Shown here: one piece after another, positions 3,472 through 18,676 of the stretch
Layout of the letters: every line of letters begins with the position of its first letter
Position numbering within the stretch: position 1 is the first letter of the stretch
The notes under the pieces: model-generated
What the model was told of the DNA's origin: nothing
Seen by the model: only the letters and a program-made list of their open reading frames with translations
Databases searched by the model: none
Translations under genes and position numbers: made by a program
Source: Ignavibacteriales bacterium
GTDB taxonomy: Bacteria; Bacteroidota; Ignavibacteria; Ignavibacteriales; Melioribacteraceae
Direction of reading: 5' to 3'
Assembly (NCBI GenBank): GCA_020061355.1
Contig: JAGUYK010000032.1
Span: forward strand, 1-64,000
DNA length: 64,000 bases

Positions 3472-3512
3472 TAATTTCGGGAAGGAAATATTCATCTTAA
3501 ATATTGTGTTTT

Positions 3513-4688
3513 ATGATAACCTACGAACAAGCCATTGAAATTGTTAAAGCGAATATTTATTCGCTCGGAGTCGAGAATGTTGAGCTGATAAAAAGCCTCA
3601 ATAGAGTATTGCGGGAAGATGTATTCTCGGATATTAACATGCCGCCGTTCAATAAATCTGCAATGGATGGTTATGCTTGCAGAAGGAAAGATATTGCCAG
3701 CGAGCTTGAAGTTATTGAAACTATTCAAGCCGGATGCAAACCTCAAAAGAGGATTGGTAAAAATCAGTGTGCAAAAATTATGACCGGCGCAGTTATTCCC
3801 GAAGGTGCTGATTGTGTTATAATTATTGAAGATGTTGATCATTTCACTCCGGATAAAATAAAATTTAGAAAAGAGAAAACACCGGATAATATCTGCTATA
3901 AAGGAGAAGATGTTGTTGAAGGACAAAAATTAGTTTCTTTAGGAACAAGGATTACAGAGAAAGAAATCGCCTCGCTCGCTTTAACCGGGTGTATGAAACC
4001 GCTTGTCAGCATTCAGCCCAAAGTTGGAATTATTACGACCGGTGATGAAATTGTTGAACCGCAATATGTTCCGAATGAAGCCCAAATCAGGAATACGAAT
4101 GCATATCAGCTTATTGCACAATCAGAAAATTTCGGAGCTATTGCAAACTACTCCGGGATTGTTAAAGATAGGGAAGATGAGATAGCTCAAGTGATAATTA
4201 AAGTAAAAAATGAAAATGATCTTATTTTAATTACCGGCGGTGTTTCAATGGGCGAGTTTGATCTTGTTCCGGAAGTATTGAAGAAAACGGGATTCGAATT
4301 ACTATTTGAGAAAGTATCAACCCAGCCCGGCAAGCCAACAGTATTTGGTAAATCGGGAAATGTATTTGTTTTTGGTATGCCCGGTAACCCGGTCTCATCA
4401 TTTATAGTGTTTGAATTTTTTGTAAAAGAATTTCTCGCAGGATTGATGGGACTAAAAAATTATTTTAAGTCTATCCCCCTCGAAATGGGTTTTGATTACA
4501 ATCGGAAAAGATCAGAACGGCTTGCCCGTGTACCAATAAAAATTAACAGCGAAAGTAAAATTGAACCTGTTGAATATCATGGCTCGGCACATATTAATGC
4601 GCTGGTTTTTGCTGATGGAATAATTTCTATTCCGATCGGAATTAGTGAAATAAAGAAAGGTACTGTTGTTGATGTTAGACAGATTTGA
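3513..4688 (+). CDS. moeA: Molybdopterin molybdenumtransferase MoeA
   Basis: Inserts molybdate into adenylylated molybdopterin, the last common step of Mo cofactor synthesis. The 391 residues match the usual MoeA length. The N-terminal part carries INMPPFNKSAMDGYA and the central MoCF-biosynthesis domain carries GIITTGDEIVEP and ITGGVSMGEFD, followed by the C-terminal beta domain. ATG 3513 gives the standard N-terminus MITYEQA; a TTG at 3504 would add three residues. The gene ends inside the start of moaA (17-base overlap), so the two are probably translated together. Confidence 0.95.
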   Translation: MITYEQAIEIVKANIYSLGVENVELIKSLNRVLREDVFSDINMPPFNKSAMDGYACRRKDIASELEVIETIQAGCKPQKRIGKNQCAKIMTGAVIPEGADCVIIIEDVDHFTPDKIKFRKEKTPDNICYKGEDVVEGQKLVSLGTRITEKEIASLALTGCMKPLVSIQPKVGIITTGDEIVEPQYVPNEAQIRNTNAYQLIAQSENFGAIANYSGIVKDREDEIAQVIIKVKNENDLILITGGVSMGEFDLVPEVLKKTGFELLFEKVSTQPGKPTVFGKSGNVFVFGMPGNPVSSFIVFEFFVKEFLAGLMGLKNYFKSIPLEMGFDYNRKRSERLARVPIKINSESKIEPVEYHGSAHINALVFADGIISIPIGISEIKKGTVVDVRQI

Positions 4689-5472
4689 GCGCCGAATCAA
4701 TTATTTACGGATAAGTGTAACAGACCGCTGCAATTTACGTTGCATTTACTGTATGCCCGAGCAACGGATTAAACTGATTGATCATAATTCGGTTCTTTCG
4801 TTTGAAGAAATTACAGAATTTACAAAGTACGCTGTGGAATTGGGAATAAACAAAGTCCGGCTTACCGGCGGCGAACCGCTAGTAAGAAAAGGAATTTTAT
4901 ATCTTGTTGAAATGATCTCCGCGATAAAAGGTATTGATGATTTCTCGATGACCACCAATGGTATATTACTTTCTAAATATGCCGAAGGACTTAAGAATGC
5001 AGGACTGCATAGAATAAATATCAGTCTTGATACAATTGATCCGGAAAAGTTTAGAGAGATGACACGCGGCGGGAATATTGATGAGGTTTTAAATGGTATT
5101 CACGCTGCAGTAGATGCCGGATTGAAACCGATTAAAATTAATTGTGTGGTAAAGAAAAGTATTGAAGAGTTAGATGCTATTGAAGTTAATAAGTTCTGTA
5201 ATGAAAATGGACTTGAAGCACGTTTCATTTTCGAAATGGATATTGAAAAAGGAGAGTTCGGCGTTGTTCACGGTGGAATTGGTGGTGATTGTGATAACTG
5301 CAACCGTCTTCGCTTAACAAGCGATGGATTTCTGAAACCGTGTCTCCTCAATGATATTTCAGTTAATATTAGGACAATGGATTATAGTGAAGCGATCCGG
5401 ATGGCAATTGAGCAGAAACCGGCTTGCGGGGATTCAAGCACCACACACAAATTTTATAATATCGGAGGATGA
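4672..5472 (+). CDS. moaA: GTP 3',8-cyclase MoaA (short form)
   Basis: Radical SAM enzyme that starts molybdopterin synthesis from GTP with MoaC. The radical SAM triad is Cys20, Cys24, Cys27 (CNLRCIYC). The second cluster motif is Cys207, Cys210 and Cys224 with the NRLRLT arginines, and the C-terminal Gly-Gly tail is present. At 266 residues it is about 60 shorter than usual. The missing part is the stretch between the RFIFEMD strand and the second cysteine pair, normally about 65 residues and here about 15. All catalytic motifs remain, so I expect it to be functional. ATG 4672 overlaps moeA; upstream TTG codons at 4666 and 4669 are in frame. moaC follows immediately. Confidence 0.9.
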   Translation: MLDRFERRINYLRISVTDRCNLRCIYCMPEQRIKLIDHNSVLSFEEITEFTKYAVELGINKVRLTGGEPLVRKGILYLVEMISAIKGIDDFSMTTNGILLSKYAEGLKNAGLHRINISLDTIDPEKFREMTRGGNIDEVLNGIHAAVDAGLKPIKINCVVKKSIEELDAIEVNKFCNENGLEARFIFEMDIEKGEFGVVHGGIGGDCDNCNRLRLTSDGFLKPCLLNDISVNIRTMDYSEAIRMAIEQKPACGDSSTTHKFYNIGG

Positions 5473-5934
5473 ATGGAAAAACTTTCTCATGTTGATGATG
5501 AAGGTTGTGCAAACATGGTTGATATAAGTGAAAAGAGAATTCAATTCCGCTCCGCTTGCGCAGAGGGATTCATTCATCTTCAACCTGAAACTATCCGGCT
5601 GGTGAAAGAGAATAAAATGAAGAAGGGAGATGTGATTTCAGTTGCTAAGATAGCCGGAATTCAAGCTTGTAAAAAAACCTCTGAACTAATTCCTCTCTGT
5701 CATCCGCTACAGATAACTAAAGTTGATCTAAAAACTGAAATACTAGAAGATCGGATTCGAGTAATAAGCTTTGTAAAATGCTGCGGTCAAACCGGTATTG
5801 AAATGGAAGCACTTACTGCTGTTTCGATAACTCTGCTTACTATCTATGATATGTCCAAAGCAGTTGATAAGCAAATGGTAATCGGCAATATTAAACTGAT
5901 TGAAAAAAAGAAAAGTGATCAGGAAATAAACTAA
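5473..5934 (+). CDS. moaC: Cyclic pyranopterin monophosphate synthase MoaC
   Basis: Converts the MoaA product to cyclic pyranopterin monophosphate. The 153-residue length is standard. The conserved stretch KTSELIPLCHPL is around residues 67-78, and GIEMEALTAVS around 110-120 holds acidic and Met residues of the active site, followed by YDM.KA. The ATG directly abuts the moaA stop codon at 5470-5472, and the moaA 3' end (GGAGGATGA) supplies a strong ribosome-binding site, so expression is coupled to moaA. Confidence 0.96.
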   Translation: MEKLSHVDDEGCANMVDISEKRIQFRSACAEGFIHLQPETIRLVKENKMKKGDVISVAKIAGIQACKKTSELIPLCHPLQITKVDLKTEILEDRIRVISFVKCCGQTGIEMEALTAVSITLLTIYDMSKAVDKQMVIGNIKLIEKKKSDQEIN

Positions 5935-5945
5935 AAGAACTTATT

Positions 5946-6899
5946 ATGACTAAGGAATTCAATAAAAAAAATAGATATATAATTTCAATCAATATCTCGA
6001 AAGAGAAAGGAACAATAAAACACCCAATTGAAAAAGCCGAAATAAATTCTTTAGGAATTGTCGGAGACGCACATTCCGGAAATTGGCACAGACAAATAAG
6101 TATGCTTGCGCAGGAAGATGTGGATCGGTTCTCTTTATTGGATGCGGATAACAGAAAATTCTTACCAGGGGAATTTGCAGAAAATTTTACAACAAGAGGG
6201 ATTGATTATAAAAAAGTCGCTCTACTAGATAGTTTCAGGATTGGAGACGTTGAGTTAGAAGTAACGCAAATCGGAAAAAAGTGTCACGATGATGGGTGCG
6301 CAATTTACGTCGAAGTAGGAAAATGTGTGATGCCGAAAGCCGGAATATTTACTAGAGTGATCAAAGGCGGAGTAATTAAAAATGGAGACATAATAAATTA
6401 TATTGCCCGTCCTTTGAAAGTAAAAATCATTACACTTAGTGACCGCGCTTCTGCCGGTGAGTATGAAGATAGAAGCGGTCTGGTGATTCAAGAGATTCTA
6501 AAAGAATACTTTTCTGATAAACGCTGGCATGTTGAATATTTATATTCTTTAATTCCCGATGATGCAGAGAAACTTAATAAAGAATTAGAACAAAGTTTGA
6601 GTGAGCAGGTTGATATTATATTCACCACCGGAGGAACTGGAATCGGTCCTCGTGATATTACACCGGAAGTAGTTGAAAAATTTGCCGATAAATTGATTCC
6701 GGGAATTATGGATCATATCCGCTTAAAATATTTTGAGAATCTTCCATCAGCTATATTAAGCAGATCGGTTGCTGCTGTAAAAAGTAAAACATTAATTTTT
6801 TCTTTGCCCGGAAGCGTAAAAGCAGTAGAAGATTATACCGGAGAGATATTAAAAATTCTGGAACACTCTCTATTAATGGTGCATGGGTTAGGGCATTAA
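5946..6899 (+). CDS. MOSC domain - MogA/MoaB molybdopterin adenylyltransferase fusion
   Basis: The 317 residues join two domains. Residues about 1-155 are a MOSC domain with GIVGDAHSGNWHR, a PGEFAENF motif and a cysteine-bearing segment KKCHDDGCAIYVEVGKC. Residues about 157-317 are a MogA/MoaB domain with LSDRASAGEYEDRSG, TTGGTGIGPRDITPE and SLPGS. The second domain adenylylates molybdopterin before MoeA inserts the metal. The MOSC part is of the small stand-alone type found beside Mo genes in anaerobes, with a proposed role in sulfur or cofactor handling. The fusion would place cofactor activation and MOSC function in one chain. It is the last gene of the operon and converges with the symporter gene 23 bases away. 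Confidence 0.9.
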   Translation: MTKEFNKKNRYIISINISKEKGTIKHPIEKAEINSLGIVGDAHSGNWHRQISMLAQEDVDRFSLLDADNRKFLPGEFAENFTTRGIDYKKVALLDSFRIGDVELEVTQIGKKCHDDGCAIYVEVGKCVMPKAGIFTRVIKGGVIKNGDIINYIARPLKVKIITLSDRASAGEYEDRSGLVIQEILKEYFSDKRWHVEYLYSLIPDDAEKLNKELEQSLSEQVDIIFTTGGTGIGPRDITPEVVEKFADKLIPGIMDHIRLKYFENLPSAILSRSVAAVKSKTLIFSLPGSVKAVEDYTGEILKILEHSLLMVHGLGH

Positions 6900-6922: not shown

Positions 6923-8392
6923 CTAAAAATTCACATTCTCCGACCCGGTAATTGACTTCTTTTCTGGAAATATCAGTGAAAAAATTACAGCGCACAAAAA
7001 TGCAAATACAAAACTCCCGAGTCTTTCTGAAACACCAGTTGGTACTAGTAAAAATGTTTTCCATATAATTGTGCCGACTGTTCCGGCTAGTAGAGATGCA
7101 ATTACTCCCGCACCGGAAAACCTTTTCCAGAATAATAACAAGAGCAGAGCCGGACCAAATGAAGAACCGATTCCCGACCAGGCATATGAAACCAATCCAT
7201 AAACAGTATCTTTCACAGTAACCGCAAGCATAAAAGCGACCGCACCAACAACCAATGTTAACATTTTATTTAACTTTAGTGTTTGAGCCATCGATAGTTT
7301 TCGTTTCGAATGATTTCTGTAAATATCCTCGGCAATGGAAGAAGAGCTTAATATTATTTCCGAAGAAGCAGTGGACATCATTGCAGAAATTATTCCCGAA
7401 AGTAAAAAACCAGCAAGAATTGGAGTGACAAACGCCTGTATCATGACAGGTAATATTTTCTCAAAATCATTTGCAAGCTTTTCTTCATTACCCGTTAGTA
7501 ATCCGTTGTTCAGAAAAGCATATCCGGCAAGCCCGATAATCATAGCGCCGGTGTAAGCAAGCACCGTCCATATAATTGCAACCCATTTTGCCGTAATAAT
7601 ATCCTTCGCATTTTTAACTGCCATCATCCTAGTCAAAAGCTGTGGTTGACCGGTGTATCCAAAAGCCCAGCTCATTCCGCTTAAAATAAGTAGAAACGCA
7701 CCGATCCCGGACTTCCCGGCTGTGAGTGAATTGTATTTTTCCCCAGCATTTGCAATTGAATCCACTATCTGAACATTTGAAGAAGCAGCAACAGATAAAA
7801 TAATTATTGGAAGAACAATCAGTGTAAATATCATCAGAATAGCCTGGAATACATCAGTAGCAACAACGGACATAAAGCCGCCCATCATGCAATAGAATGT
7901 AATGATTGCTGCTCCAATGACAATTCCCCAGAAGGGTTCAATTCCGAAAGCATCATGTAAAATTATTCCGCCGCCTGCAAATTGAGCAGAAATATAAAAC
8001 GTGAAAAAGAAAACGACTATTGATGCAGAAAGAGTACCGATTATTTTTTGTAAATCCGGAAATTTTTTTGAAATTAAACTCGGAATAGTAAGTGCCCCGC
8101 TCTTTTCTGTTTCTTCCCTTAACCTGTTGCCCATTACAAACCAGATGAATCCGATTCCGAATACACATCCTAATGCAATCCATATTGCTTGTATTCCAAT
8201 TAAAAATGCTTCTCCGGTTAATCCTAATAAAAGCCATGCAGATTCTCCGGTTGCTCTTTCGGAAAGAGCCAGAGAGAAGCCAGAAATTTTTTTATCACCC
8301 AGTACAAAAGATGATGCTGTTTTTGCCCGTTTAGCTGAAATGAATGCGATTGAAAGTGTAATAATGAGGTAAAGTATAAGAACGATTATCAT
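6923..8392 (-). CDS. putP: Na+/solute symporter, PutP-like (proline or hydroxyproline)
   Basis: Inner-membrane transporter of the SSS family, 489 residues with about 12-13 hydrophobic segments. Segment two reads ALSERATGESAWLLLGL, which resembles PutP. However, where E. coli PutP has Asp55, this sequence seems to carry Gly followed by Glu, so the Na+ site may differ. The position downstream of P5C dehydrogenase in the imino-acid island supports proline or hydroxyproline as substrate. A terminator lies between it and P5C dehydrogenase (8471-8498), so it probably has its own promoter in 8393-8470 or is reached by read-through. Other SSS substrates cannot be excluded. Confidence 0.82.
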   Translation of the reverse strand: MIIVLILYLIITLSIAFISAKRAKTASSFVLGDKKISGFSLALSERATGESAWLLLGLTGEAFLIGIQAIWIALGCVFGIGFIWFVMGNRLREETEKSGALTIPSLISKKFPDLQKIIGTLSASIVVFFFTFYISAQFAGGGIILHDAFGIEPFWGIVIGAAIITFYCMMGGFMSVVATDVFQAILMIFTLIVLPIIILSVAASSNVQIVDSIANAGEKYNSLTAGKSGIGAFLLILSGMSWAFGYTGQPQLLTRMMAVKNAKDIITAKWVAIIWTVLAYTGAMIIGLAGYAFLNNGLLTGNEEKLANDFEKILPVMIQAFVTPILAGFLLSGIISAMMSTASSEIILSSSSIAEDIYRNHSKRKLSMAQTLKLNKMLTLVVGAVAFMLAVTVKDTVYGLVSYAWSGIGSSFGPALLLLLFWKRFSGAGVIASLLAGTVGTIIWKTFLLVPTGVSERLGSFVFAFLCAVIFSLIFPEKKSITGSENVNF

Positions 8393-8466
8393 ATCTTTTC
8401 ACGTTTTTATGATAAGGCAAAATGGCAAAGTGAAATCTATTTTTCAATAAAAAATGATAGGTATTA

Positions 8467-8498
8467 AAGAAAAAGGTCACTCTATTGAATGACCTTTT
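8467..8498 (-). terminator. Rho-independent terminator after P5C dehydrogenase
   Basis: The 9-base arms AAAAGGTCA (8471-8479) and TGACCTTTT (8490-8498) are perfectly complementary around a 10-base loop. Read on the minus strand, the hairpin is followed by a T-rich run (TTTTTCTTT). It lies 20 bases beyond the P5C dehydrogenase stop, so it separates that gene from the symporter. Confidence 0.75.
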
Positions 8499-8517
8499 AA
8501 ATTGGCTTAATAAGGAA

Positions 8518-10155
8518 TTATTTTTCTGACATGAAAGGATAACGGAAATCTTTTCTTGTTACAAAGTTTTCCTTTATAGTTCTTGGAGAAACCCAGCGTA
8601 CAAGGTTTAAAAAGCTTCCGGCTTTATCATTAGTCCCGCTTCCTCTTGCACCGCCGAATGGTTGTTGACCCACTACTGCGCCGGTCGGTTTATCATTGAT
8701 ATAAAAATTACCTGCCGCATGTTTCAATATCCGATCTGCAGTTACAATAGCAGTTCTGTCCTGTCCAAATATTGCACCGGTTAAGGCGTAGGGAGAAGTT
8801 TCATCACAAAGATGAAGCGTTTCTTCATATTTCTCGTCATCATAAACGTAAACTGTTAATACCGGTCCGAATATTTCTTCTTCCATCGTTTTGAATTTTG
8901 GATCTGTTGTAACAATTATTGTGGGATTGATAAAATACCCGACTTTATCATCGTAATCGCCACCAACGATGATCTCGGCATCTTTATTGTTACGTGCGTA
9001 TTCGATATAGCTTACAATTGTATCGAATGCAGCCTTATCAATTACAGCATTGTTATAGTTCGAAAAATCAGCAACATCACCGGTTTTTAGTTTTTTAAGT
9101 TCAGTTACTAAATAATGTTTTACTTCAGGCCAAAGAGATTTTGGAATGTATGTTCTGGAAGCTGCAGAACATTTTTGTCCCTGGTATTCAAACGCACCTT
9201 GAATTAGTGAAACTCCAACACCTCTTGCATCGGCACTCTTATGAACAAAGACAAAATCTTTCCCGCCCGTTTCACCGACGATTCTAGGATATGTTTTATA
9301 CTTCGGAAGATTGTTCGAAATAGTTTTCCACATCTGCTGAAAAACCGGAGTGCTTCCTGTAAAATGGAGTCCTGCAAAATTTCTGTTTTCAAAAATAATA
9401 TTGCTTATAGTTGGACCCGAACCGGGCAAAAAATTAATTACGCCCGGCGGCAATCCTGCAGCTTCAAGCAATTTAACAATGAAATAAGCTGAATAAACAC
9501 TTGTTCCAGCCGGTTTTAAGATTGAAACATTTCCCATTATTGCAGGAGCACCGGGAAGATTTGCATTGAAAGTTGTAAAATTGAACGGAGCTATAGCATA
9601 AACAAAACCTTCAAGCGGTCTGTATTCCATTCTATTCCACATTCCGTGAGGTGAATGAGGGGGCTGTTCCTGATAAATCTTGTTTGCATAAAATATGTTG
9701 AAACGGAAAAAGTCTGCAGTTTCGCAAACAGCATCAATTTCTGCCTGATGAACATTTTTACTTTGACACAACATTGTTGAGGCATTTAAAATATAGCGCC
9801 AATCGGTTAATGTTATCATATCGGCTGCTCGTGAAAAAATAGCTGCTCTGTCATGCCATTCCATAACCGACCAGATTTTGTATGCTTCCATTGCAGCTTC
9901 AATTGCCATATTAACTTCTTTTTCTCCGGCTTTGTGATATTTGCCAAGCACATGTTTGTGATTGTGGGGCATTACTATATTTGCTGTGTTGCCGGTTCTT
10001 ATTTCTTTTCCGCCTATAATAAGTGGAATATCAATCTGTTGACTCTGCATTTCTTTCAGTTTGGACTTTAATGCTTCTCTCTCGGGTGTTCCGGGTGCAT
10101 ATGATTTTACCTCTTCATTTGCGGGTAAAGAGAAGTTAAAAATTGCATTTACCAT
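8518..10155 (-). CDS. pruA: L-glutamate gamma-semialdehyde (P5C) dehydrogenase
   Basis: NAD-dependent oxidation of glutamate semialdehyde/P5C to glutamate. The mammalian enzyme also oxidises the 3-hydroxy analogue to 4-hydroxyglutamate. The 545 residues correspond to the monofunctional ALDH4A1-type enzyme, not to the C-terminal half of a PutA fusion. The catalytic Cys is at about 329 (EYQGQKCSA) and the general-base Glu at about 295 (VGETGGKD). FTGSTPVF and PFGGARGSGTNDKAG are also present. It can take P5C from both proline dehydrogenase and the HypD dehydratase of this island. It is separated by 289 bases from the aminotransferase gene upstream, so it may have its own promoter. Confidence 0.96.
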   Translation of the reverse strand: MVNAIFNFSLPANEEVKSYAPGTPEREALKSKLKEMQSQQIDIPLIIGGKEIRTGNTANIVMPHNHKHVLGKYHKAGEKEVNMAIEAAMEAYKIWSVMEWHDRAAIFSRAADMITLTDWRYILNASTMLCQSKNVHQAEIDAVCETADFFRFNIFYANKIYQEQPPHSPHGMWNRMEYRPLEGFVYAIAPFNFTTFNANLPGAPAIMGNVSILKPAGTSVYSAYFIVKLLEAAGLPPGVINFLPGSGPTISNIIFENRNFAGLHFTGSTPVFQQMWKTISNNLPKYKTYPRIVGETGGKDFVFVHKSADARGVGVSLIQGAFEYQGQKCSAASRTYIPKSLWPEVKHYLVTELKKLKTGDVADFSNYNNAVIDKAAFDTIVSYIEYARNNKDAEIIVGGDYDDKVGYFINPTIIVTTDPKFKTMEEEIFGPVLTVYVYDDEKYEETLHLCDETSPYALTGAIFGQDRTAIVTADRILKHAAGNFYINDKPTGAVVGQQPFGGARGSGTNDKAGSFLNLVRWVSPRTIKENFVTRKDFRYPFMSEK

Positions 10156-10444
10156 ATAAATAACCTGTTTCCTTTTAAAAAATTATTTTCTTGTTAACAA
10201 ATATATAACATCCGATTATTGAAAAAAATTCAAAAACTCCGATTTAATATTCAGCTTTATAATATTTGCTAATAATAGTACTGATTCTTATGAATCTTGA
10301 GATTTTTTGCAGAATACGCATTCTTTATGGTAGAACAAATAGTAATTGAATAGAGAAGTCCAAATTAAATGACATATCGAAAGATCATTTATCAATAAAT
10401 TTGAAATGAGAAATAGGAGTTTTATTATGCTTCAAAATTCGTAA
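10156..10444 (-). promoter_or_regulatory. Intergenic region upstream of P5C dehydrogenase
   Basis: This 289-base AT-rich gap between the aminotransferase and P5C dehydrogenase genes contains no credible ORF. It has only a weak 6-base-arm hairpin (10367-10390). It probably holds a second promoter for pruA. I see no clear box sequences. Confidence 0.35.
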
Positions 10445-11557
10445 TTATAGAACTTCCTTTAATGATTTGATAAAATAATCAATCATCCTCTCGTTGGAAT
10501 TATAACCCATCAAGCCGATTCTCCAAACTTTTCCAGCAAGCTCTCCAAGTCCCACACCAATTTCCAGATTGTGTTTATTTAATAAGTCCATTCTTACTTG
10601 AGCTTCGTCAACTCCATCAGGTACTTTAATTGTCAGCAAGTTTGGTATTCTTTCATTTTCAGGAACAAGCGGTTCCAAACCCAGTTCTTTTAATCGTGAA
10701 ATTAATTTTAAACTGTTCTCTTTATGTCTACTCCATGAGTTTTCTATTCCTTCTTCTTTTAGAAGAAGCAGTGCTTCATGTAAACCATAGAATTGATTAC
10801 TTGGTGCTGTGTGATGATATACTCTTTTCCCCGGTCCGCTCCAATAACTTAAAAGAAGATTCAAATCATTGAACCAGCTTTGCACCGGAATTTTCCTATT
10901 CTTAATATGATCAACTGCACGCTGGCTGAATGTAATAGGCGACATCCCGGCAACACACGATAATCCTTTCTGAGAACAGGAATAGGCGGCATCAATCTCC
11001 CATTTATCAATTTGGACTTCGACTGCGCCAAGCGATGTAACTGTATCAGCAATAACAAGGGCATTATATTTATGAACGATTTCTGAGAGTGTTTTAATAT
11101 CAGATAAAGCGCCGGTCGATGTCTCTGCATGAACAAACGCAACAACTTTTGAATCGGGATTCTGCTTAAGTGCATATTCGAGTTTATTAGGATCGATTGC
11201 TCGTCCCCATGTTTCTTTTACTACCACCACCTTTCCGCCAATTTTTTCTACGATCTGGGTCATTCGATTTGCGAAATATCCGCCTACACACACAACAACT
11301 TTATCACCAGGTTGAACTAGGTTGATCAAACAGGCTTCCATTCCAAGAGAGCCTGGACCCGAGAGAACAAATGTAGCATCGTTCTCTGTTTTAAATGTAT
11401 ATCTGAGTATATCTTTAATTTCATCCATCAACTCGATGAATTGAGGGTCGAGATGACCAAGTGCCGGTTTTGACAATGCCTTTAAAACTTTCGGATGAAC
11501 ATTAGATGGACCAGGTCCCATTAAAATTCTATTTATAGGCATGAAAGTGTTGATCAT
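10445..11557 (-). CDS. Alanine-glyoxylate aminotransferase-like PLP enzyme
   Basis: Class V aminotransferase, 370 residues. The N-terminal NRILMGPGPSNV and GHLDPQF, the ENSWSRH segment and the C-terminal KVWRIGLMG closely resemble human AGT as I remember it. The PLP lysine is about Lys197 in CSQKGLS. AGT transfers the amino group of alanine (or serine) to glyoxylate to give glycine. Its place right after a HOGA1-like aldolase, which would release glyoxylate, makes this role likely. Serine-glyoxylate or serine-pyruvate transaminase activity is the main alternative. ATG 11557 has a GGAG ribosome-binding site 5-6 bases upstream. Confidence 0.85.
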   Translation of the reverse strand: MINTFMPINRILMGPGPSNVHPKVLKALSKPALGHLDPQFIELMDEIKDILRYTFKTENDATFVLSGPGSLGMEACLINLVQPGDKVVVCVGGYFANRMTQIVEKIGGKVVVVKETWGRAIDPNKLEYALKQNPDSKVVAFVHAETSTGALSDIKTLSEIVHKYNALVIADTVTSLGAVEVQIDKWEIDAAYSCSQKGLSCVAGMSPITFSQRAVDHIKNRKIPVQSWFNDLNLLLSYWSGPGKRVYHHTAPSNQFYGLHEALLLLKEEGIENSWSRHKENSLKLISRLKELGLEPLVPENERIPNLLTIKVPDGVDEAQVRMDLLNKHNLEIGVGLGELAGKVWRIGLMGYNSNERMIDYFIKSLKEVL

Positions 11558-11607
11558 ATATACTCCAGCATAATTTTTTTGATTATGAATTATTATTCAT
11601 TCAACAG

Positions 11608-12495
11608 TTATTCTATTAATGAGGCAATTTTTAATATTTCCTTCAATTGTGATCTATCGTTTTCATTTATTGTTGATAGCGGTGCCCTTGGTTCGCCACC
11701 GAAATATCCCATCATATCCATCGCTGCTTTTAATCCTGCAACACCATACTTAGCAGTAACCGCTTTATTGACCGGAATCATTCTGTTTTGAAGAGTTAAA
11801 GCGTCTTTCAAATTTCCTTTCTCAATCAATTTCTGAATTTCCATACATTCACCGGGTGCAATATTAGCAAGTGCAAGAATTCCTCCGACAGCTCCTGAAG
11901 TAAAACCGGAATAGAGCATCGATGCGGTGCCAACAATAACTGCAAAGCCTTTGTCCGTATATGAAATGAATTCGTTGTTCTGTCTAACATTTTCAGAACT
12001 GTTTTTAATTCCTACTATGTTGGGGTGTTCTGATAATTTTGCAACAGTTTCTGCTTCAATATCAACGCCGGTAAATTTCGGAACGTTATATATTATCACT
12101 GGTATTTTTACAGCATCAGCAACTGCAGTAAAATATTTTATAAAAGCTTCGTGCTTCATTTCAGATTTGTAAAATGAAGGTGTGAGTATTAAAAGGAAAT
12201 CTGCGCCTCTAGCGACAGATTCATTCGAAAGGGAAATGGTTTCTTTTATAGAATCGCTCCCCGTTCCGGCAATAATGTGTTTATCAGGTGAAGCAAACTT
12301 TTTTGTTGCTTCAACAAGTTTTAATTTTTCCTCACGAGTAAGAAAAACGGATTCGCCGTTTGAACCCATTACAACATAGCCTGTCAAGTCGGTTTTATTC
12401 CACTTGTTTATGTTGAATTCAAGTTTATCAATTGCGAGTTCGCCGTTTACAAACGGTGTTGTAATCGGCGGCATTATTCCTTTTAATTGTTTCAT
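11608..12495 (-). CDS. 4-hydroxy-2-oxoglutarate aldolase-like (HOGA1 type, DapA superfamily)
   Basis: Schiff-base aldolase of 295 residues. It belongs to the DapA/NAL superfamily, but the motif is GSNGE (44-48), as in mammalian HOGA1, rather than the GTTGE of dihydrodipicolinate synthase. Schiff-base Lys164 (GIKNS) and Tyr136 (YNVP) keep exactly the HOGA1 spacing from Ser45 (constant offset of 32 from the human Ser77/Tyr168/Lys196 as I recall them). The C-terminal YGVAGLKAAMDMMGYFGG and RAPL also match HOGA1. The enzyme would split 4-hydroxy-2-oxoglutarate into pyruvate and glyoxylate. It lies 12 bases after proline dehydrogenase and 50 bases before the AGT-like gene, which fits that role. 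KDG/NAL-type activity is the fallback. Confidence 0.8.
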   Translation of the reverse strand: MKQLKGIMPPITTPFVNGELAIDKLEFNINKWNKTDLTGYVVMGSNGESVFLTREEKLKLVEATKKFASPDKHIIAGTGSDSIKETISLSNESVARGADFLLILTPSFYKSEMKHEAFIKYFTAVADAVKIPVIIYNVPKFTGVDIEAETVAKLSEHPNIVGIKNSSENVRQNNEFISYTDKGFAVIVGTASMLYSGFTSGAVGGILALANIAPGECMEIQKLIEKGNLKDALTLQNRMIPVNKAVTAKYGVAGLKAAMDMMGYFGGEPRAPLSTINENDRSQLKEILKIASLIE

Positions 12496-12507
12496 ATTTT
12501 ATTCTAA

Positions 12508-13440
12508 TCAGTTTTTAAAAATATTTTTTAGTACAAACCAAATATTGGCCGGACGTTCAGCAAGTCGGCGCATATACCATGGATACCACGATTCACCATA
12601 AGCTATAAGTACTCTGAAGCTATATCCATCTACTGCCAACTGTTTTTGCAAGGATGTTTTTATTCCATAGAGCATCTGGAATTCATACTTCGATTTGTGA
12701 ATATTTTGAATTTCGGCTTCACTTATGATTCGGTTTATCAATTTTTCATCATGAGTAGCAAAAACGAGTCGAATCTTTTTCTCTTTGGATCCGATTAATA
12801 AATTCCTGGCACAATTGAAAAAATTATCATCTGCCTGAGCTTTGTCTTTAAATACAAAATTATGCGGTTCTTTATACGCACCTTTTACCATCCTTATAGA
12901 TGGATTTGTGGCTTCTAAGTCTTCAATATCCTTTTCTGTTCTAAATAGATATGCCTGAAGACAGATGCCGACGTTTTCAAAATCCTTTTTACATCTCTTA
13001 TAAAAATCTATTGTCCTCTGAGTATAAATAGTGCTCTCCATGTCGATAAAAACTGTATTGTTCAGTTTTTCTTTAGCGCTTTTTACAATAGCATAAAAGT
13101 TTTTGAAAGTCTCTTCTTCAGAAAGATCGAATCCGAGTTGTGTCAACTTTACAGATATTTCAATGTCGAGTTTCCTTTCAGCAATTTTGTCAATTAGCTG
13201 AAGGTAATGATCACGTACTTCGGTGGCTTCTGAAAGATGAGAGATGTTTTCACCAAGCTTAGTGAAAACCGATGGGATACCAAAAGTTAAGAACTCCTTA
13301 GAAGCCTCAAGTGCAGCATCTTCCGTCTCACCCGGCATGAATTTCTTAACGGCTTTTCGAACGAATCCCAATTTCGAAATCCGTTCTTTCATCAATTTAT
13401 TTTCAGACATCCATAGGAGGATGTTTCTAGTGATGCTCAT
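12508..13440 (-). CDS. Proline dehydrogenase (monofunctional), possibly acting on hydroxyproline
   Basis: FAD-dependent oxidation of proline to P5C, passing electrons to the quinone pool; 310 residues forming a TIM barrel without a P5CDH domain. Key motifs are ISVKLTQLG, MVKGAYKEP and the substrate-binding tail RRLAERPAN near the C terminus. I chose ATG 13440 because GGAAG lies five bases upstream. An in-frame ATG at 13461 would start inside a palindromic repeat. The adjacent HOGA1-like and AGT-like genes make a hydroxyproline dehydrogenase (PRODH2-like) function conceivable, but the sequence alone does not separate the two substrates. Confidence 0.88.
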   Translation of the reverse strand: MSITRNILLWMSENKLMKERISKLGFVRKAVKKFMPGETEDAALEASKEFLTFGIPSVFTKLGENISHLSEATEVRDHYLQLIDKIAERKLDIEISVKLTQLGFDLSEEETFKNFYAIVKSAKEKLNNTVFIDMESTIYTQRTIDFYKRCKKDFENVGICLQAYLFRTEKDIEDLEATNPSIRMVKGAYKEPHNFVFKDKAQADDNFFNCARNLLIGSKEKKIRLVFATHDEKLINRIISEAEIQNIHKSKYEFQMLYGIKTSLQKQLAVDGYSFRVLIAYGESWYPWYMRRLAERPANIWFVLKNIFKN

Positions 13441-13456
13441 TACACTTCCATCACAA

Positions 13457-13506
13457 GTCATGCTTCGACTATCCCTCGCTTCGCTCGGGATTGCTCAGCA
13501 TGACGA
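13457..13506. repeat. 50-bp palindromic repeat, copy 1
   Basis: Identical at all 50 positions, and in the same orientation, to 13938-13987. The ends are 8-base inverted repeats (GTCATGCT / AGCATGAC) and the centre is an imperfect GC-rich palindrome (CCCTCGCTTCGCTCGGG). It encodes the last 14 codons and the stop of the GIY-YIG gene, and ends 17 bases before the chosen proline dehydrogenase start. Confidence 0.9.
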
Positions 13507-13799
13507 CGTTTTGTATTTCTTCTTTTTGATAGGATTTTAAGTTTATCAAAATCCCGAATTTTTAATGCTTCCTTTTTGGCTCGGCTCCAGCCTTTAATCT
13601 GTTTTTCCCGTTCGATGGCAATTGACGGGCTGTTAAATTCTTCGTAATAAAAAAGTTCAAAAGGTAATCTTGCTGATACATAACTATCATGACTGCTAGA
13701 ATTATGCTCTTGCAGTCGTCGTTCAATATTATTTGTAACGCCAGTATAGTAACTACCATCAGAACATTTTAAAATGTAAACGTACATCCGTTTCTTCAT
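13458..13799 (-). CDS. GIY-YIG nuclease-superfamily protein
   Basis: Small single-domain GIY-YIG protein of 113 residues. The fold motif is YVYILKCSDGSYYTG at about 6-20, then the Arg segment ERRLQEHN (about 26-33) and the Glu-bearing AIEREKQIKGWS (about 61-72). The last 14 residues (HAEQSRAKRGIVEA) are encoded by the palindromic repeat at 13457-13506, so the tail is not part of the ancestral protein. The gene interrupts an otherwise metabolic gene string and is flanked by two identical 50-bp repeats. It looks like an inserted, selfish or housekeeping repeat-associated gene; its target is unknown. Confidence 0.85.
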   Translation of the reverse strand: MKKRMYVYILKCSDGSYYTGVTNNIERRLQEHNSSSHDSYVSARLPFELFYYEEFNSPSIAIEREKQIKGWSRAKKEALKIRDFDKLKILSKRRNTKRRHAEQSRAKRGIVEA

Positions 13800-13852
13800 G
13801 TTATCATCTAATCTATCTAACAGATCTTTACAAAAATAGTGTATATACCGAA

Positions 13853-13898
13853 GTCAGACTGAGCCACACGACGTTAGTCGTGTGAGTCGAAGTCTGAC
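13853..13898. repeat. Nested palindrome between GIY-YIG gene and repeat copy 2
   Basis: The outer arms GTCAGACT (13853-13860) and AGTCTGAC (13891-13898) enclose a perfect inner hairpin, CACACGAC (13865-13872), loop GTTA, GTCGTGTG (13877-13884). The architecture (8-base outer arms around an inner palindrome, about 46 bases) resembles that of the flanking 50-bp repeats but the sequence differs. Confidence 0.8.
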
Positions 13899-13937
13899 GG
13901 GTGACAACTTAATATTCTGGTTTTGTTTACTTCTCCG

Positions 13938-13987
13938 GTCATGCTTCGACTATCCCTCGCTTCGCTCGGGATTGCTCAGCATGACGA
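13938..13987. repeat. 50-bp palindromic repeat, copy 2
   Basis: Direct second copy of 13457-13506, start-to-start distance 481 bases, with no mismatch. It ends 9 bases before the stop of the Xaa-Pro aminopeptidase gene and may also act as a 3' hairpin for that transcript. Confidence 0.9.
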
Positions 13988-13996
13988 ATGCATTAT

Positions 13997-15391
13997 TTAT
14001 ATTTTATCTGAAGCTACTGCTTCTACTTCATCAACAGTTTTTGGAATTGGTTTTCCAAGAACACGGCATCCATTATTTGTTACTACAATATCATCTTCAA
14101 TCCGGACACCGCTGAATTTCCTAAATTGATTAACCTTAGCATAGTTAATGAATTCGGAAAATTTCTTCTCACTCTGCCATTTATCAATTAGCTCTGGTAT
14201 AAAATAAATTCCCGGCTCAACTGTTAATACAACTCCCGGAACGAGAGGTCTTGCATAACGGAGCGATTTTAAACCAAACTGAGTGCTTCGTTTGGTCTTT
14301 TCATCATAACCGAAATTATTTTCACCATAGTTTTCCATATCGTGAACATCAAGACCCATAAGATGGCCTAATCCGTGAGGGAAGAAGAGTGCATGTGCGC
14401 CAGCTTCAACGGCATCTTTTGTGTTTCCTTTCATCACTCCGAGCGCTTTCAATCCGTCAGTAATTACTTCCGCAGCTTTAAGATGAATCGATTTATAGTT
14501 CTGTTTCGGTTTAATTTCGTTTATAGCTGTCATGTTTGCAGCTAGAACAATTTCGTAAATAAATTTCTGGACCGGGGTAAATTTACCATTAACAGGAAAA
14601 GTTCTTGTAATATCACTTGAATAATGTGAAACCGCTTCAACACCCGAATCATTTACAACTAGATCTCCGTCCTTTAATTTATTACCGTAATAATGGTTGT
14701 GAAGAGTTTGAACATTACGCGAAAAGATTGGCGGAAATGCAAGCCCGTTTCCGAGCGATAGTGCAAGACCCTCGATAAAACCGGCAACCTCGCGTTCGTA
14801 CATCCCCGGTTTTGTAAATCGCATAGCTGCAGTGTGCATCTCGTAAGCAATGTTTACGGCTTTTTCAATTTCAGCAATTTCCTCTTTTGATTTTACTAAT
14901 CTCTGTTCTGCAGCAGCTTGTATTAATGCCATTGATGCATAATCATTAACTTTTTTAGGGGAAATTCCCAGTAGTCTCTGGATTGTTAATATATTATCGT
15001 AACGGTACTGAGGGATAAATTGAATTTTTCTTCCTTGCTTAACAGCATTGGTACATATTGTTTCAAGTTCACTAAGTGGTTTTGTGATTTTCACACCGCA
15101 TTTTGCAGCGTGTTGTTTGATTGTTGGTTGTGGTCCCATCCACACAATCATATCAATTGTAAAATCATTTCCGAAAACAATTTCTTTATCTTCGTCAACA
15201 TCAATTATGGCGGCAAGTTCAGCACGGTCTAAACCAAAGTAATAGAGGAATGTACTGTCCTGTCTGAAGTGATAAGTGTTATCGGTATAGTTCATCGGTG
15301 CTTCATTGTTGCCGAGAAATAAGATGAGACCATTTTTAATTTTCTTTTTTAATTCTGATCGGCGTTGAATATAGGTTTTTGCATTAAACAT
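13997..15391 (-). CDS. pepP: Xaa-Pro aminopeptidase (M24B)
   Basis: Dimetal aminopeptidase that removes an N-terminal residue preceding proline, and probably hydroxyproline; 464 residues with an N-terminal creatinase-like domain and a pita-bread catalytic domain. Metal ligands are visible in VVNDSGVEAVSHYSSDITR (two Asp), HGLGHLMGLDVHD (His), VEPGIYF (Glu) and GVRIEDDIVVT (Glu). The start has a GAGGTAAAA ribosome-binding site. It fits the island as the step that frees imino acids from peptides before catabolism. Confidence 0.93.
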   Translation of the reverse strand: MFNAKTYIQRRSELKKKIKNGLILFLGNNEAPMNYTDNTYHFRQDSTFLYYFGLDRAELAAIIDVDEDKEIVFGNDFTIDMIVWMGPQPTIKQHAAKCGVKITKPLSELETICTNAVKQGRKIQFIPQYRYDNILTIQRLLGISPKKVNDYASMALIQAAAEQRLVKSKEEIAEIEKAVNIAYEMHTAAMRFTKPGMYEREVAGFIEGLALSLGNGLAFPPIFSRNVQTLHNHYYGNKLKDGDLVVNDSGVEAVSHYSSDITRTFPVNGKFTPVQKFIYEIVLAANMTAINEIKPKQNYKSIHLKAAEVITDGLKALGVMKGNTKDAVEAGAHALFFPHGLGHLMGLDVHDMENYGENNFGYDEKTKRSTQFGLKSLRYARPLVPGVVLTVEPGIYFIPELIDKWQSEKKFSEFINYAKVNQFRKFSGVRIEDDIVVTNNGCRVLGKPIPKTVDEVEAVASDKI

Positions 15392-15463
15392 TTTTACCTC
15401 AAGTTATTAAGTTTTTATAAGTTCAAATCTGCTAAATCAGTTCTGCCTATGTGCTATTAAATA

Positions 15464-15504
15464 GAACGCTGATGACACGGATTTAACAGATGCTCGCGGA
15501 TTCT
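15464..15504. repeat. Dispersed repeat fragment of the ACGGATTTAACAGAT type
   Basis: The stretch carries CGCTGATGACACGGATTTAA and GCTCGCGGATT, a repetitive wording (GATnnCnCGGATT) that I recall as common between genes of Bacteroidota and Ignavibacteria. It runs up to the HypD stop codon. The recurring unit inside it is GATGACACGGATT / GATGCTCGCGGATT. Confidence 0.45.
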
Positions 15505-17867
15505 TAAAATACCGAATGCTCAGTTCTTCTAATAATTTCGTTTTGTAAGGCTTCACTTAAATCTACAAAATAATCGCTGTAACCGGCAACACGAACAATA
15601 AGATCGCGGTGCTTTTCGGGATGCTTCTGCGCTTTTCGCAAGATATCAGCGGTCACAACATTGAATTGAATGTGGTGCCCGTCGAGTTTGAAATAGGTTC
15701 TTATCAATTTAACAGCTTTATCTATTTCTTCTTCGGTCTCAAGAAGTTGTGGCGTAAATTTTTGATTAAGCAGTGTTCCGCCTGTTCGCAGATGGTCGAT
15801 CTTGGATGCCGATTTAATCACCGATGTCGGTCCGTGTATATCCGAACCTTGAACAGGCGATATTCCCTCGCTGAGTGGTTCGTAAGCTATGCGACCATCG
15901 GGTGTAGCACCTGTAACACTTCCAAAATATACGTGTGAAGTTGTCGGTAATAAATTTATTCTGAAATATCCGCCTTTAGTATTCGGTCTGCCATCAACTG
16001 CTTTAAAATAAATTTCGAAAATCTGCTTAGTTATATCGTCAGCATAATCGTCGTCATTACCATACTTAGGCGTTTCAAACAATAATTTATTCTGAAGTTC
16101 CTTTTCTTCGGTAAAATTATTTTGAAGGGCATTCAGCAATTTTTCCATAGAGAGTTTCTTTTTATCAAAGACATTATATTTAATTGAGGTTAGAGAATCG
16201 GTGATAGTTCCGAGTCCTACTCCCTGAACGTACGATGTGTTATATCTTGCACCTCCTGCATTGTAGTCGGTTCCTTTCTTGATGCAGTCGTCAATTAAAA
16301 TTGACATGAATGGAGCCGGCATATAATCGGCATAGATCCGTTCAATTATAATATTTCCTTTGATCTTGATATTGATGAAATGATTTAGCTGCTTCTCATA
16401 AGCATTTATCAACTCATCGAATGAAGCAAATGATTTTGGATCACCCGTTTTAATTCCGATTTGCTTTTTTATTCTGGGATCAAGCCCGTTATGCAATGTT
16501 ATTTCAAGAATTTTTACAAGATTGAAATACCCGGTTAGAATATAAGCTTCTTTGCCAAAAGCCCCTGTTTCAACACAACCGCTTGCACCACCGCATCTTG
16601 CATCAATTAATGATTTGCCGTGACGAAGCATTTCCTGAATTATCGCATCGGTGTTGAAAATACTTGGTTGACCGAATCCGGTTTTAACTATCTTCATGGC
16701 GCGCTTCAACAATCGATCAGGATTCTTTTTACTCACTTGAACCATCGAACTCGGTTGAAGTAATCTCATCTCTTCAATAACATCGAGTATGACGTAAGTT
16801 AAATCGTTTGTTGCATCTTCGCCATCGGGTGTAACACCACCCACATTTATCAAACAGAAATCTGTATATGTACCGCTCTCTGCTGCAGTAACACCAATCT
16901 TAGGAGGCGCCGGCTGATTGTTAAACTTAACCCAGAATGATTGTAATAATTCTTTTGCACTTTCTTTTGTTAGTAAGCCGCTTTCAATATCGCGTTTGTA
17001 GAACGGATAAAGGTGCTGATCCAATCTACCGGGATTAAATGAATCCCATGTGTTTAGTTCTGTAATAACTCCAAGATGGACAAACCAGTAATATTGCAGC
17101 GCTTCCCAGAATGTTCGAGGTGCATTTGCCGGAACTCTTTCACAAATGCCAGCGAGTGTTTCTAATTCATTTTTACGTATAATATCATTTTCACTTGCAG
17201 CAAGTTCATACAGCTTTTTACTGTAACGTTGTGCGAATGATATCAATGCATCGGTACAAATTTCCATTGCGCGGAGTTCTTCGCGTTTCTCGAAAGCATT
17301 AGGATCATTGTAGAAATCCAGATTTGTAATTGATTTCTGAATCTCTTTCTTAAAATCAACCATCCCTTTTTTATAAATCTTGTCATCAAGAACGGTGTGA
17401 CCCGGTGCGCGTTGTTCCATAAACTCTGTAAAAATTCCGGCAGTGTAGCAATCCTGCCATTCCTGATCAACCTCTTCAAAAATCTTATCGCGGATCGATC
17501 TGCCGTTCCAGAAAGGAATAATCTCTTTTTCGAAAACCGATTTTGTTTCATCACTTACTTTGAACCAGACTTTAGGACGTGTATCCAGAATTTCAAGATC
17601 CTTTATGCTATGTACGCAAAGTTCGGGGTAAGTTGGGGTTGCTTTCGGTTCAGGTCCGCGTTCCCCGACAATCAGTTCGCCGTCATTGATACATAATTCT
17701 TTATTCTCAAGTAGATATTTGAATGCAAGTGCACGTGCAATGGGTGTTGAAACTCTTTCAGCTTTTCCGAATTTATAAAATTGAGTTAACAATTGAGCAC
17801 GTTCATGCGAAAGACGCGGGATGGCATTTAATGTCTGCTCTCGTAATTTTTTTATTCTCTCGTTCAT
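15504..17867 (-). CDS. hypD: trans-4-hydroxy-L-proline dehydratase (glycyl radical enzyme HypD)
   Basis: Glycyl radical enzyme that dehydrates trans-4-hydroxy-L-proline to P5C; 787 residues. The radical glycine is Gly762 (RVAGYSDYF) and the catalytic pair is Cys431/Glu433 (GCVETG). His157, Asp275, Ser331, Asp336, Tyr447 and Thr642 all fall at a constant offset of three from the substrate-pocket residues I recall for Clostridioides difficile HypD. This argues against pyruvate formate-lyase, glycerol or choline lyase. GGAGG precedes the ATG, which overlaps the activase stop by one base. The product P5C can go to glutamate (P5C dehydrogenase at 8518-10155) or, with a reductase outside the window, to proline. 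The enzyme is expected to be oxygen sensitive. The symbol should not be confused with the hydrogenase maturation HypD. Confidence 0.93.
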   Translation of the reverse strand: MNERIKKLREQTLNAIPRLSHERAQLLTQFYKFGKAERVSTPIARALAFKYLLENKELCINDGELIVGERGPEPKATPTYPELCVHSIKDLEILDTRPKVWFKVSDETKSVFEKEIIPFWNGRSIRDKIFEEVDQEWQDCYTAGIFTEFMEQRAPGHTVLDDKIYKKGMVDFKKEIQKSITNLDFYNDPNAFEKREELRAMEICTDALISFAQRYSKKLYELAASENDIIRKNELETLAGICERVPANAPRTFWEALQYYWFVHLGVITELNTWDSFNPGRLDQHLYPFYKRDIESGLLTKESAKELLQSFWVKFNNQPAPPKIGVTAAESGTYTDFCLINVGGVTPDGEDATNDLTYVILDVIEEMRLLQPSSMVQVSKKNPDRLLKRAMKIVKTGFGQPSIFNTDAIIQEMLRHGKSLIDARCGGASGCVETGAFGKEAYILTGYFNLVKILEITLHNGLDPRIKKQIGIKTGDPKSFASFDELINAYEKQLNHFINIKIKGNIIIERIYADYMPAPFMSILIDDCIKKGTDYNAGGARYNTSYVQGVGLGTITDSLTSIKYNVFDKKKLSMEKLLNALQNNFTEEKELQNKLLFETPKYGNDDDYADDITKQIFEIYFKAVDGRPNTKGGYFRINLLPTTSHVYFGSVTGATPDGRIAYEPLSEGISPVQGSDIHGPTSVIKSASKIDHLRTGGTLLNQKFTPQLLETEEEIDKAVKLIRTYFKLDGHHIQFNVVTADILRKAQKHPEKHRDLIVRVAGYSDYFVDLSEALQNEIIRRTEHSVF

Positions 17868-18676
17868 TAATATCCTCCGATTTTCACATTGAAACCGGTC
17901 GATTCAAACTTACTTTTTATTGAATTCATTTCTTCGCTATTGGGTGGTTCAAGATCCGGAAGTTTGTTCTCTTTTTTCATCTTATTGTATTTTGATTCTG
18001 CACTTTTGTGATAGGGCAGGAGGTTAATCTCCCGAATATTTTTTAAAGACATAATAAATTTAATCATTTCATCAAGATTTTCTTCTGTATCTGTAATTGT
18101 AGGAACAACCGGGATTCTTAAAACTACTTTATTCCCGGAATCGGAAAGTCGTTTCAAATTAGCATGAATTATTTTGTTTGATACACCGGTATACTTAATA
18201 TGTAAATCGTCGTTCATCAGTTTGAGGTCGTAAAGGAAGAGATCGGTTGAATTATAAATCAGTTCAAGATTTTTAAAATCTGTATAGCCGGTTGTATCGA
18301 TGGCAGTGTGAATATTTTTCTCTTTACAACGAATTAAAAGATCATTTAAAAAATTGATCTGAAGAATCGGTTCGCCGCCAGAAAAAGTTGCACCGCCGTC
18401 TGACTCCTCGTAGAAGGGAACGTCCTTTTCGATTTCTATCATCACTTCTTCACTTGTAACTTCCGACCCGACTCTTTTTTTATTTTCGTAATCGTGCGAT
18501 AAATGCCAGCGGAATGTACACTCTTCAAACTCTTCCGGAAGTTTACGCTGACTTTCTGGATTATGGCACCACCAGCATTTGAGCGGGCAGCCCTTAAAAA
18601 AAACTGTCGTGCGGATACCGGGTCCGTCATTGATCGAATATTTTTTTATATCGAAAATATAACCTTTAATGCTCAT
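17867..18676 (-). CDS. Glycyl-radical enzyme activase for HypD
   Basis: Radical SAM enzyme that installs the glycyl radical on the dehydratase, 269 residues. The N-terminal FDIKKYSINDGPGIRTTVFF is the standard activase opening, with the cluster cysteines Cys30, Cys34 and Cys37 (CPLKCWWC) and the SAM-binding GGATFSGGEP. Between the cluster and that motif only a short insert with one Cys (EECTF) is present, so it lacks the two-cluster ferredoxin-like insert found in many activases. It is the first gene of the dehydratase unit, and stop/start overlap (TAATG) with hypD indicates strict coupling. The ribosome-binding site is weak. Confidence 0.93.
   Translation of the reverse strand: MSIKGYIFDIKKYSINDGPGIRTTVFFKGCPLKCWWCHNPESQRKLPEEFEECTFRWHLSHDYENKKRVGSEVTSEEVMIEIEKDVPFYEESDGGATFSGGEPILQINFLNDLLIRCKEKNIHTAIDTTGYTDFKNLELIYNSTDLFLYDLKLMNDDLHIKYTGVSNKIIHANLKRLSDSGNKVVLRIPVVPTITDTEENLDEMIKFIMSLKNIREINLLPYHKSAESKYNKMKKENKLPDLEPPNSEEMNSIKSKFESTGFNVKIGGY

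Follow-up and report, generated by a model that had tools for sequence, protein, structure and literature searches.

A gene string in an Ignavibacteriales genome with a predicted anaerobic and a predicted animal-like route for hydroxyproline

Introduction

Can one bacterial locus hold two different fates for trans-4-hydroxy-L-proline? Mammals take hydroxyproline to pyruvate plus glyoxylate, and "a number of bacteria" take it to 2-oxoglutarate, per the available portion of a published account (PMC5144071). The question is raised by a 64,000-nucleotide stretch of Ignavibacteriales DNA, hereafter the window, which opens contig C47 of a 3.69 Mb genome that is 99.9% complete. A first-pass annotation had found in it eight genes in which the glycyl radical hydroxyproline dehydratase HypD lies beside homologs of the aldolase and aminotransferase of mammalian hydroxyproline oxidation, and had read these as two alternative routes, perhaps switched by oxygen. 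To our knowledge, the animal-type oxidative hydroxyproline pathway is not generally credited to bacteria, and among the matches listed in a search of open-access literature, no such bacterial cluster is described in the titles and abstract openings. We consider it likely that this one locus serves imino-acid and peptide catabolism and carries two routes for trans-4-hydroxy-L-proline, a reading that is well supported by the comparative evidence below and is biochemically unproven.

Results

Gene content of the locus

An ORF check placed all eight genes on the minus strand between positions 6923 and 18676, exactly where the first-pass annotation had them, and both the gene string and its family names were borne out by the ORFs and profile searches. 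The eight-gene island is confirmed as an observation. Its features, with one further ORF, are as follows:

17867..18676, minus strand: HypD activase of the radical-SAM type in a compact form of 269 aa (best match NF043069)
15504..17867, minus strand: HypD, trans-4-hydroxy-L-proline dehydratase, a glycyl radical enzyme (NF043068)
13997..15391, minus strand: peptidase of the Xaa-Pro aminopeptidase type, M24/AMP_N (Peptidase_M24 and AMP_N profiles)
13458..13799, minus strand: GIY-YIG nuclease ORF, probably a mobile insertion outside the pathway (profile and flanking repeats)
12508..13440, minus strand: Leu-type PRODH-family enzyme, proposed hydroxyproline dehydrogenase (Pro_dh)
11608..12495, minus strand: HOGA1-like aldolase, predicted to act on 4-hydroxy-2-oxoglutarate (DHDPS family, PDB match, residues)
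10445..11557, minus strand: AGT-like class-V aminotransferase (PDB matches)
8518..10155, minus strand: L-glutamate-gamma-semialdehyde (P5C) dehydrogenase, P5CDH (TIGR01236)
6923..8392, minus strand: PutP-like sodium:solute symporter, SSF (TIGR02121)

The GIY-YIG ORF, which was absent from the first-pass list, breaks into the string, with the aminopeptidase on one side of it and PRODH on the other. It is flanked by 61-nt direct repeats (13446-13506 and 13927-13987) that are 92% identical, and a third copy of the repeat core was not found within the window. The gene stands at the same place in some relatives and is missing in others, and therefore resembles a small mobile cassette; it is probably a mobile insertion with no part in the pathway. 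The neighboring PRODH gene probably starts at 13440 (Met8), not at 13461 where the ORF opens, because relatives start there.

A scan for promoters and terminators came out at chance level (41 vs 38.4 and 12 vs 9.2) and therefore supports no operon claim. The case that the gene string is more than a chance arrangement is made by the co-occurrence and linkage counts given below. The closest aldolase loci in named records come from Melioribacter, Ignavibacteriales and Stygiobacter electus. A molybdenum-cofactor string (moeA, moaA, moaC and a MOSC-MoaB fusion) occupies positions 3504-6899 of the window, convergent with the island, and is also found near the island in the relatives' loci L081, L101, L165, L166 and L167.

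HypD and its activase

HypD scored 1332.2 bits against NF043068 (cut-off 1100), making it a member of that curated family, and 1070 bits against PDB 6vxc. When the 6vxc alignment was read by eye, with a 20-residue tag offset in the numbering, C. difficile HypD Gly765, Cys434, Glu436, His160, Asp278, Asp339, Phe340, Ser334, Tyr450 and Thr645 were all found to be identical here. Per the available part of the structural report (PMC7077986), these ten residues bind hydroxyproline, take part in radical transfer or act in acid-base chemistry. The activase, whose ORF overlaps that of HypD by 1 base, has NF043069 as its best match at 325 bits, below the cut-off of 425. No cysteine-rich ferredoxin-like insert is present in this activase or in those of the loci read from its family and order, and four more distant loci with HypD (L079, L080, L088 and L089) encode activases that keep extra cysteine motifs.

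The aldolase resembles human HOGA1

Among PDB entries the aldolase is nearest to human HOGA1 (218 bits; best DapA 146). Its Ser45-Asn46, Tyr136, Lys164 and Ser166 correspond to Ser77-Asn78, Tyr168, Lys196 and Ser198 of human HOGA, and it has Ser-Asn in place of the DapA Thr-Thr motif and Phe in place of DapA Arg138. Equivalents of the Schiff-base Lys196, of Tyr168 and of Ser77 are present in the window sequence and in all 52 PRODH-linked aldolases (46 distinct). The Asn78 equivalent was found in 52/52 of the linked aldolases vs 0/16 DapA-like controls from the same phylum, and the Ser198 equivalent in 52/52 vs 2/16. Arg at DapA position 138, which we take to be a functional DapA residue, showed the reverse distribution (0/52 vs 16/16). 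At the position of human Tyr140, a column aligned for the linked set only, 47 of the 52 have Tyr and 5 have Phe. Asn78 and Ser198 are substrate-binding residues of the human enzyme, and their counterparts in E. coli DHDPS are Thr45 and Ala163, according to the available part of the HOGA study (PMC3188589).

One alternative is that the aldolase acts as the DapA of this organism, or as the deaminase in the epimerase route known from bacteria. Membership in the DHDPS family speaks for this, as does the dapA NCBIfam model, which scores the protein at 197.8 bits, just below its cut-off of 206. The idea is already contradicted, and we regard it as vanishingly improbable: DapB had no match in the own genome by a search that was positive in 11/14 control genomes, DapA Arg138 is replaced, and the aldehyde dehydrogenase of the string is a P5CDH. 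The proline-racemase family PF05544 likewise had no match in the own genome at E 0.001 (3/14 controls positive), and the genome therefore has no epimerase of that family. DapA was accordingly rejected on the absence of DapB and the replaced DapA residues, and the Lhp epimerase route was rejected for this genome on the missing racemase-family match.

DapB also went without a match in 6/8 relatives tested beside the own genome, so that the genomes lacking a DapB match are seven of nine (the own genome G000, G035, G176, G188, G066, G116 and G377). The genome's two other DHDPS-family genes do not have the HOGA Asn. The first-pass assignment of the gene as HOGA1-like thus agrees with both the active-site residues and the lack of a DapB match, and these findings support an enzyme that is HOGA-like rather than DapA, with cleavage of 4-hydroxy-2-oxoglutarate as its predicted reaction. 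A second HOGA-like group, with 41-48% identity to the window's aldolase, comprises 16 loci (L099, L242-L250, L252-L256 and L260); the HOGA Asn and Ser are kept in the 13 of its sequences that were read.

A Leu-type PRODH beside an ordinary one

The cluster enzyme was found to belong to the PRODH family and to have its fold; among NCBIfam models it comes nearest to Thermus-type PRODH, with a score under that model's cut-off. In E. coli PutA, a tyrosine in the pocket enforces proline over hydroxyproline. All 49 HOGA-linked PRODHs, the window's included, have Leu at that site, and Tyr is found there in 19/19 ordinary PRODHs, plus one further sequence (G240b) outside the 19. The pocket of the Leu-type enzyme appears, as aligned, to be altered at two tyrosine positions, to Leu and to Trp. 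Human PRODH2 has Ser at the proline-enforcing site; that it retains the second tyrosine counts against the hydroxyproline reading. The second PRODH in the own genome, on C17, is of the ordinary type with its Tyr retained, and this bears on a worry voiced in the first-pass annotation, that the cluster PRODH may use proline only: a specialised copy standing beside an ordinary one answers that worry, although activity on hydroxyproline is unproven.

The same Leu and Trp were also seen in 22/22 readable subfamily PRODHs away from HOGA (a 23rd ends before the site), and Leu alone therefore does not mean hydroxyproline; the change from Tyr to Leu as sole proof of hydroxyproline use was dropped for this reason. 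In a tree of 68 subfamily sequences (L212, L214, L216 and the short L261 left out; the L203 copy of genome G240 represented by L121), the HOGA-linked PRODHs share one clade, of which they make up 48 of the 50 members, and 18 of the 22 non-HOGA Leu PRODHs form its sister clade. Six of the non-HOGA enzymes lie in rhamnose-type sugar clusters (L188, L193, L196, L198, L204 and L213). Near these six sister-clade genes there is a fusion of a class-II aldolase and a short-chain dehydrogenase, presumably of the rhamnulose-aldolase type, along with a DUF6786 protein in 5/6 loci and sugar ABC transporter parts in 4/6.

Aminotransferase, P5CDH and peptide genes

The aminotransferase is nearest in the PDB to alanine-glyoxylate aminotransferases (1vjo at 388 bits, human AGT entries at about 246), and none of the best 25 of its 39 matched NCBIfam families passes its cut-off. 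It could convert glyoxylate to glycine, or could itself be the 4-hydroxyglutamate transaminase. The latter enzyme had been noted as missing from the window in the first-pass annotation, and the string does hold no dedicated gene for it, but a candidate exists elsewhere in the genome: an aspartate-aminotransferase-like gene on C46 (463 bits to PRK06107, cut-off 617). Transamination of 4-hydroxyglutamate may thus fall to the C46 gene product or to the AGT. P5CDH scored 792 bits against TIGR01236 (cut-off 614), and its two other matches in the own genome reach only 27% and 25% identity; as the single close homolog, it would serve all routes.

The symporter is closest to PutP (TIGR02121 at 380 bits, below the cut-off of 515) and the M24/AMP_N peptidase is closest to Xaa-Pro aminopeptidase (209 bits, below the cut-off of 465). 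A POT peptide transporter and an S37 peptidase also belong to the peptide context of the loci. Five loci carry a proline-racemase-family gene with Thr for the second catalytic Cys (L012 at 7989, L013 at 7995, L081 at 14314, L093 at 4064 and L096 at 6339), close either to the PRODH-HOGA block or to the peptide genes that accompany it. We take this Thr to be the motif of trans-3-hydroxyproline dehydratase, which is what these genes likely encode.

This context bears on whether the Leu-type PRODH might use another imino acid, such as cis-4-hydroxyproline or a ring-substituted proline, with HOGA clearing the product. A pocket changed at both tyrosine positions would fit such a substrate, and a sister clade found partly in sugar clusters indicates that the subfamily is not bound to one substrate. 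The linkage to HypD, to an M24 peptidase and sometimes to a trans-3-hydroxyproline-dehydratase-like gene points instead to collagen-type peptides, and we hold the other-imino-acid explanation to be quite unlikely.

Conservation and linkage in relatives

Two samples were searched, one of 247 genomes from the phylum and one of 392 genomes from the class. In the phylum sample, HypD was above its cut-off in 15 genomes and a HOGA orthologue was present in 14 (at least 248 bits; next match 134). PRODH adjoins HOGA in 11 of these 14 unselected genomes, sometimes with a small ORF between them (exceptions: G051, G224 and G004), and AGT is near HOGA in 8/14, with one of the other 6 ending at a contig edge.

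In the class sample (HOGA at E <=1e-55, HypD at E <=1e-200), HOGA was found in 66 genomes, HypD in 50 (45 above its cut-off and 5 below) and both in 25. HypD is thus present in 25/66 genomes with HOGA vs 25/326 without (Fisher p 3.5e-9, with relatedness ignored and genomes of uneven completeness). When the sample was collapsed to genera (n=190), HOGA was found in 33, HypD in 28 and both in 14 (Fisher p 1.3e-5, relatedness again ignored); this association holds within the window's family (p 0.001) and is weak outside it (p 0.04). A lack of co-occurrence between HypD and the other genes in relatives, which the first-pass annotation had named as counting against its reading, is thereby excluded.

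The same sample also shows the PRODH-HOGA-AGT block to be independent of HypD: 41/66 HOGA genomes have no HypD match, and the block therefore stands as expected of a self-sufficient second route. The Stygiobacter electus 09-Me locus, L013, is on the same contig as G467, a genome in which HypD had no match. In the genome G047, all that is left of HypD is a short C-terminal piece (L100, 3342-3470) beside a metallo-beta-lactamase-like gene, with aminopeptidase, PRODH and HOGA intact nearby, and HypD has probably been lost.

Linkage was counted over distinct loci with HOGA identity of at least 48%, with the window left out and 6 repeat fetches of the same contigs dropped. By tblastn, PRODH lies within 2.5 kb of HOGA on the same strand in 44/50 loci with at least 1.2 kb upstream, a count biased upward as many loci were fetched by PRODH; the unbiased figure is the 11/14 above. 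An AGT homolog is encoded close to HOGA, on the HOGA strand, in 35/48 loci with at least 2.5 kb downstream (that none was found there in the other 13 counts against the two-route reading), P5CDH is present in 20/41 loci with at least 5 kb downstream, and HypD lies within 9 kb in 13/40 loci with at least 7 kb upstream.

HOGA and the Leu PRODH each occur in 66/392 genomes, and 52 genomes share them. The 14/66 HOGA genomes without any Leu PRODH, among them G051 and G224, both with HypD, are what one might expect if the cluster PRODH were a plain proline dehydrogenase, with hydroxyproline entering only via HypD and with HOGA and AGT handling another 2-oxo acid. The 16 distant HOGA loci at 41-48% identity, none with PRODH within 2.5 kb, also fit that explanation. 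Against it stand the adjacency of PRODH and HOGA in the unselected genomes, the Tyr-type PRODH that the genome already has, and the near-exclusive clade of HOGA-linked PRODHs, and we judge it unlikely. A further proposal would have HOGA condense glyoxylate with pyruvate and AGT supply or remove the glyoxylate, with no oxidation of hydroxyproline. Related DHDPS enzymes do run in the condensing direction, per the available part of PMC3188589, but this proposal leaves both the PRODH link and the separate PRODH clade unexplained and is highly improbable.

Discussion

The two-route interpretation put forward in the first-pass annotation is supported in part, by the HOGA1 identity of the aldolase, the independence of the block from HypD and the presence of a specialised PRODH. 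In the preferred two-route reading, the first route would run without oxygen, with the activase making the glycyl radical on HypD, HypD dehydrating hydroxyproline to P5C and P5CDH converting this to glutamate. The second, oxidative and animal-like, would start with the Leu-type PRODH oxidizing hydroxyproline to 3-hydroxy-P5C, which P5CDH would take to 4-hydroxyglutamate; a transaminase (AspAT-like or AGT) would then yield 4-hydroxy-2-oxoglutarate, the HOGA1-like aldolase would split this into pyruvate and glyoxylate, and AGT would make glycine from the glyoxylate. Both routes would draw on what the aminopeptidase and the PutP-like symporter deliver.

Substrates, flux and oxygen dependence are what we infer from this scheme. 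HypD is oxygen-sensitive as an enzyme class, and the gene string contains no regulator gene; an oxygen switch between the routes is reasonable to suppose, and no more. A fuller version, in which both complete pathways sit at one locus, oxygen chooses between them and AGT closes a nitrogen loop, is put forward tentatively and is on the doubtful side. In that loop, AGT would move the amino group of 4-hydroxyglutamate onto the glyoxylate released by HOGA, and hydroxyproline would become pyruvate plus glycine with no outside amino donor.

If the two-route reading is correct, the locus predicts bacteria with mammalian chemistry, a short-form hydroxyproline dehydrogenase and a bacterial HOGA, and the bacterial enzymes could be tractable models for the enzymes of primary hyperoxaluria. 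A further prediction is that collagen-type peptides form part of the diet of environmental Ignavibacteria. The locus would also be a naturally occurring example in which oxygen may decide which of two fates a single substrate meets.

Among known systems, bacterial proline utilisation (PutP, PRODH and P5CDH) shares the transporter and two enzyme families with this locus, which differs in having HOGA and AGT added and in its PRODH, which is an additional copy whose pocket is altered. The LhpA-F pathway to 2-oxoglutarate also employs a DHDPS-family enzyme and an aldehyde dehydrogenase; unlike it, the genome studied here has no racemase-family epimerase match, the string carries P5CDH, and the predicted products are pyruvate and glycine. 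Similar to the HypD pathway found in anaerobes such as C. difficile, the locus encodes HypD and its activase with the HypD residues conserved, but here they lie beside an apparent oxidative route and P5CDH, and the activase is without the ferredoxin-like insert. The mammalian pathway runs through PRODH2/HYPDH, ALDH4A1, GOT2, HOGA1 and AGXT. In contrast to it, the present genes are bacterial and form a single string with no dedicated GOT2-like gene, the PRODH resembles the short Thermus type, and the tyrosine is replaced by Leu. Nevertheless, the locus remains similar to the mammalian pathway in having the same order of enzyme families, a HOGA with its active-site residues kept and a specialised PRODH in which the proline-enforcing tyrosine has been replaced.
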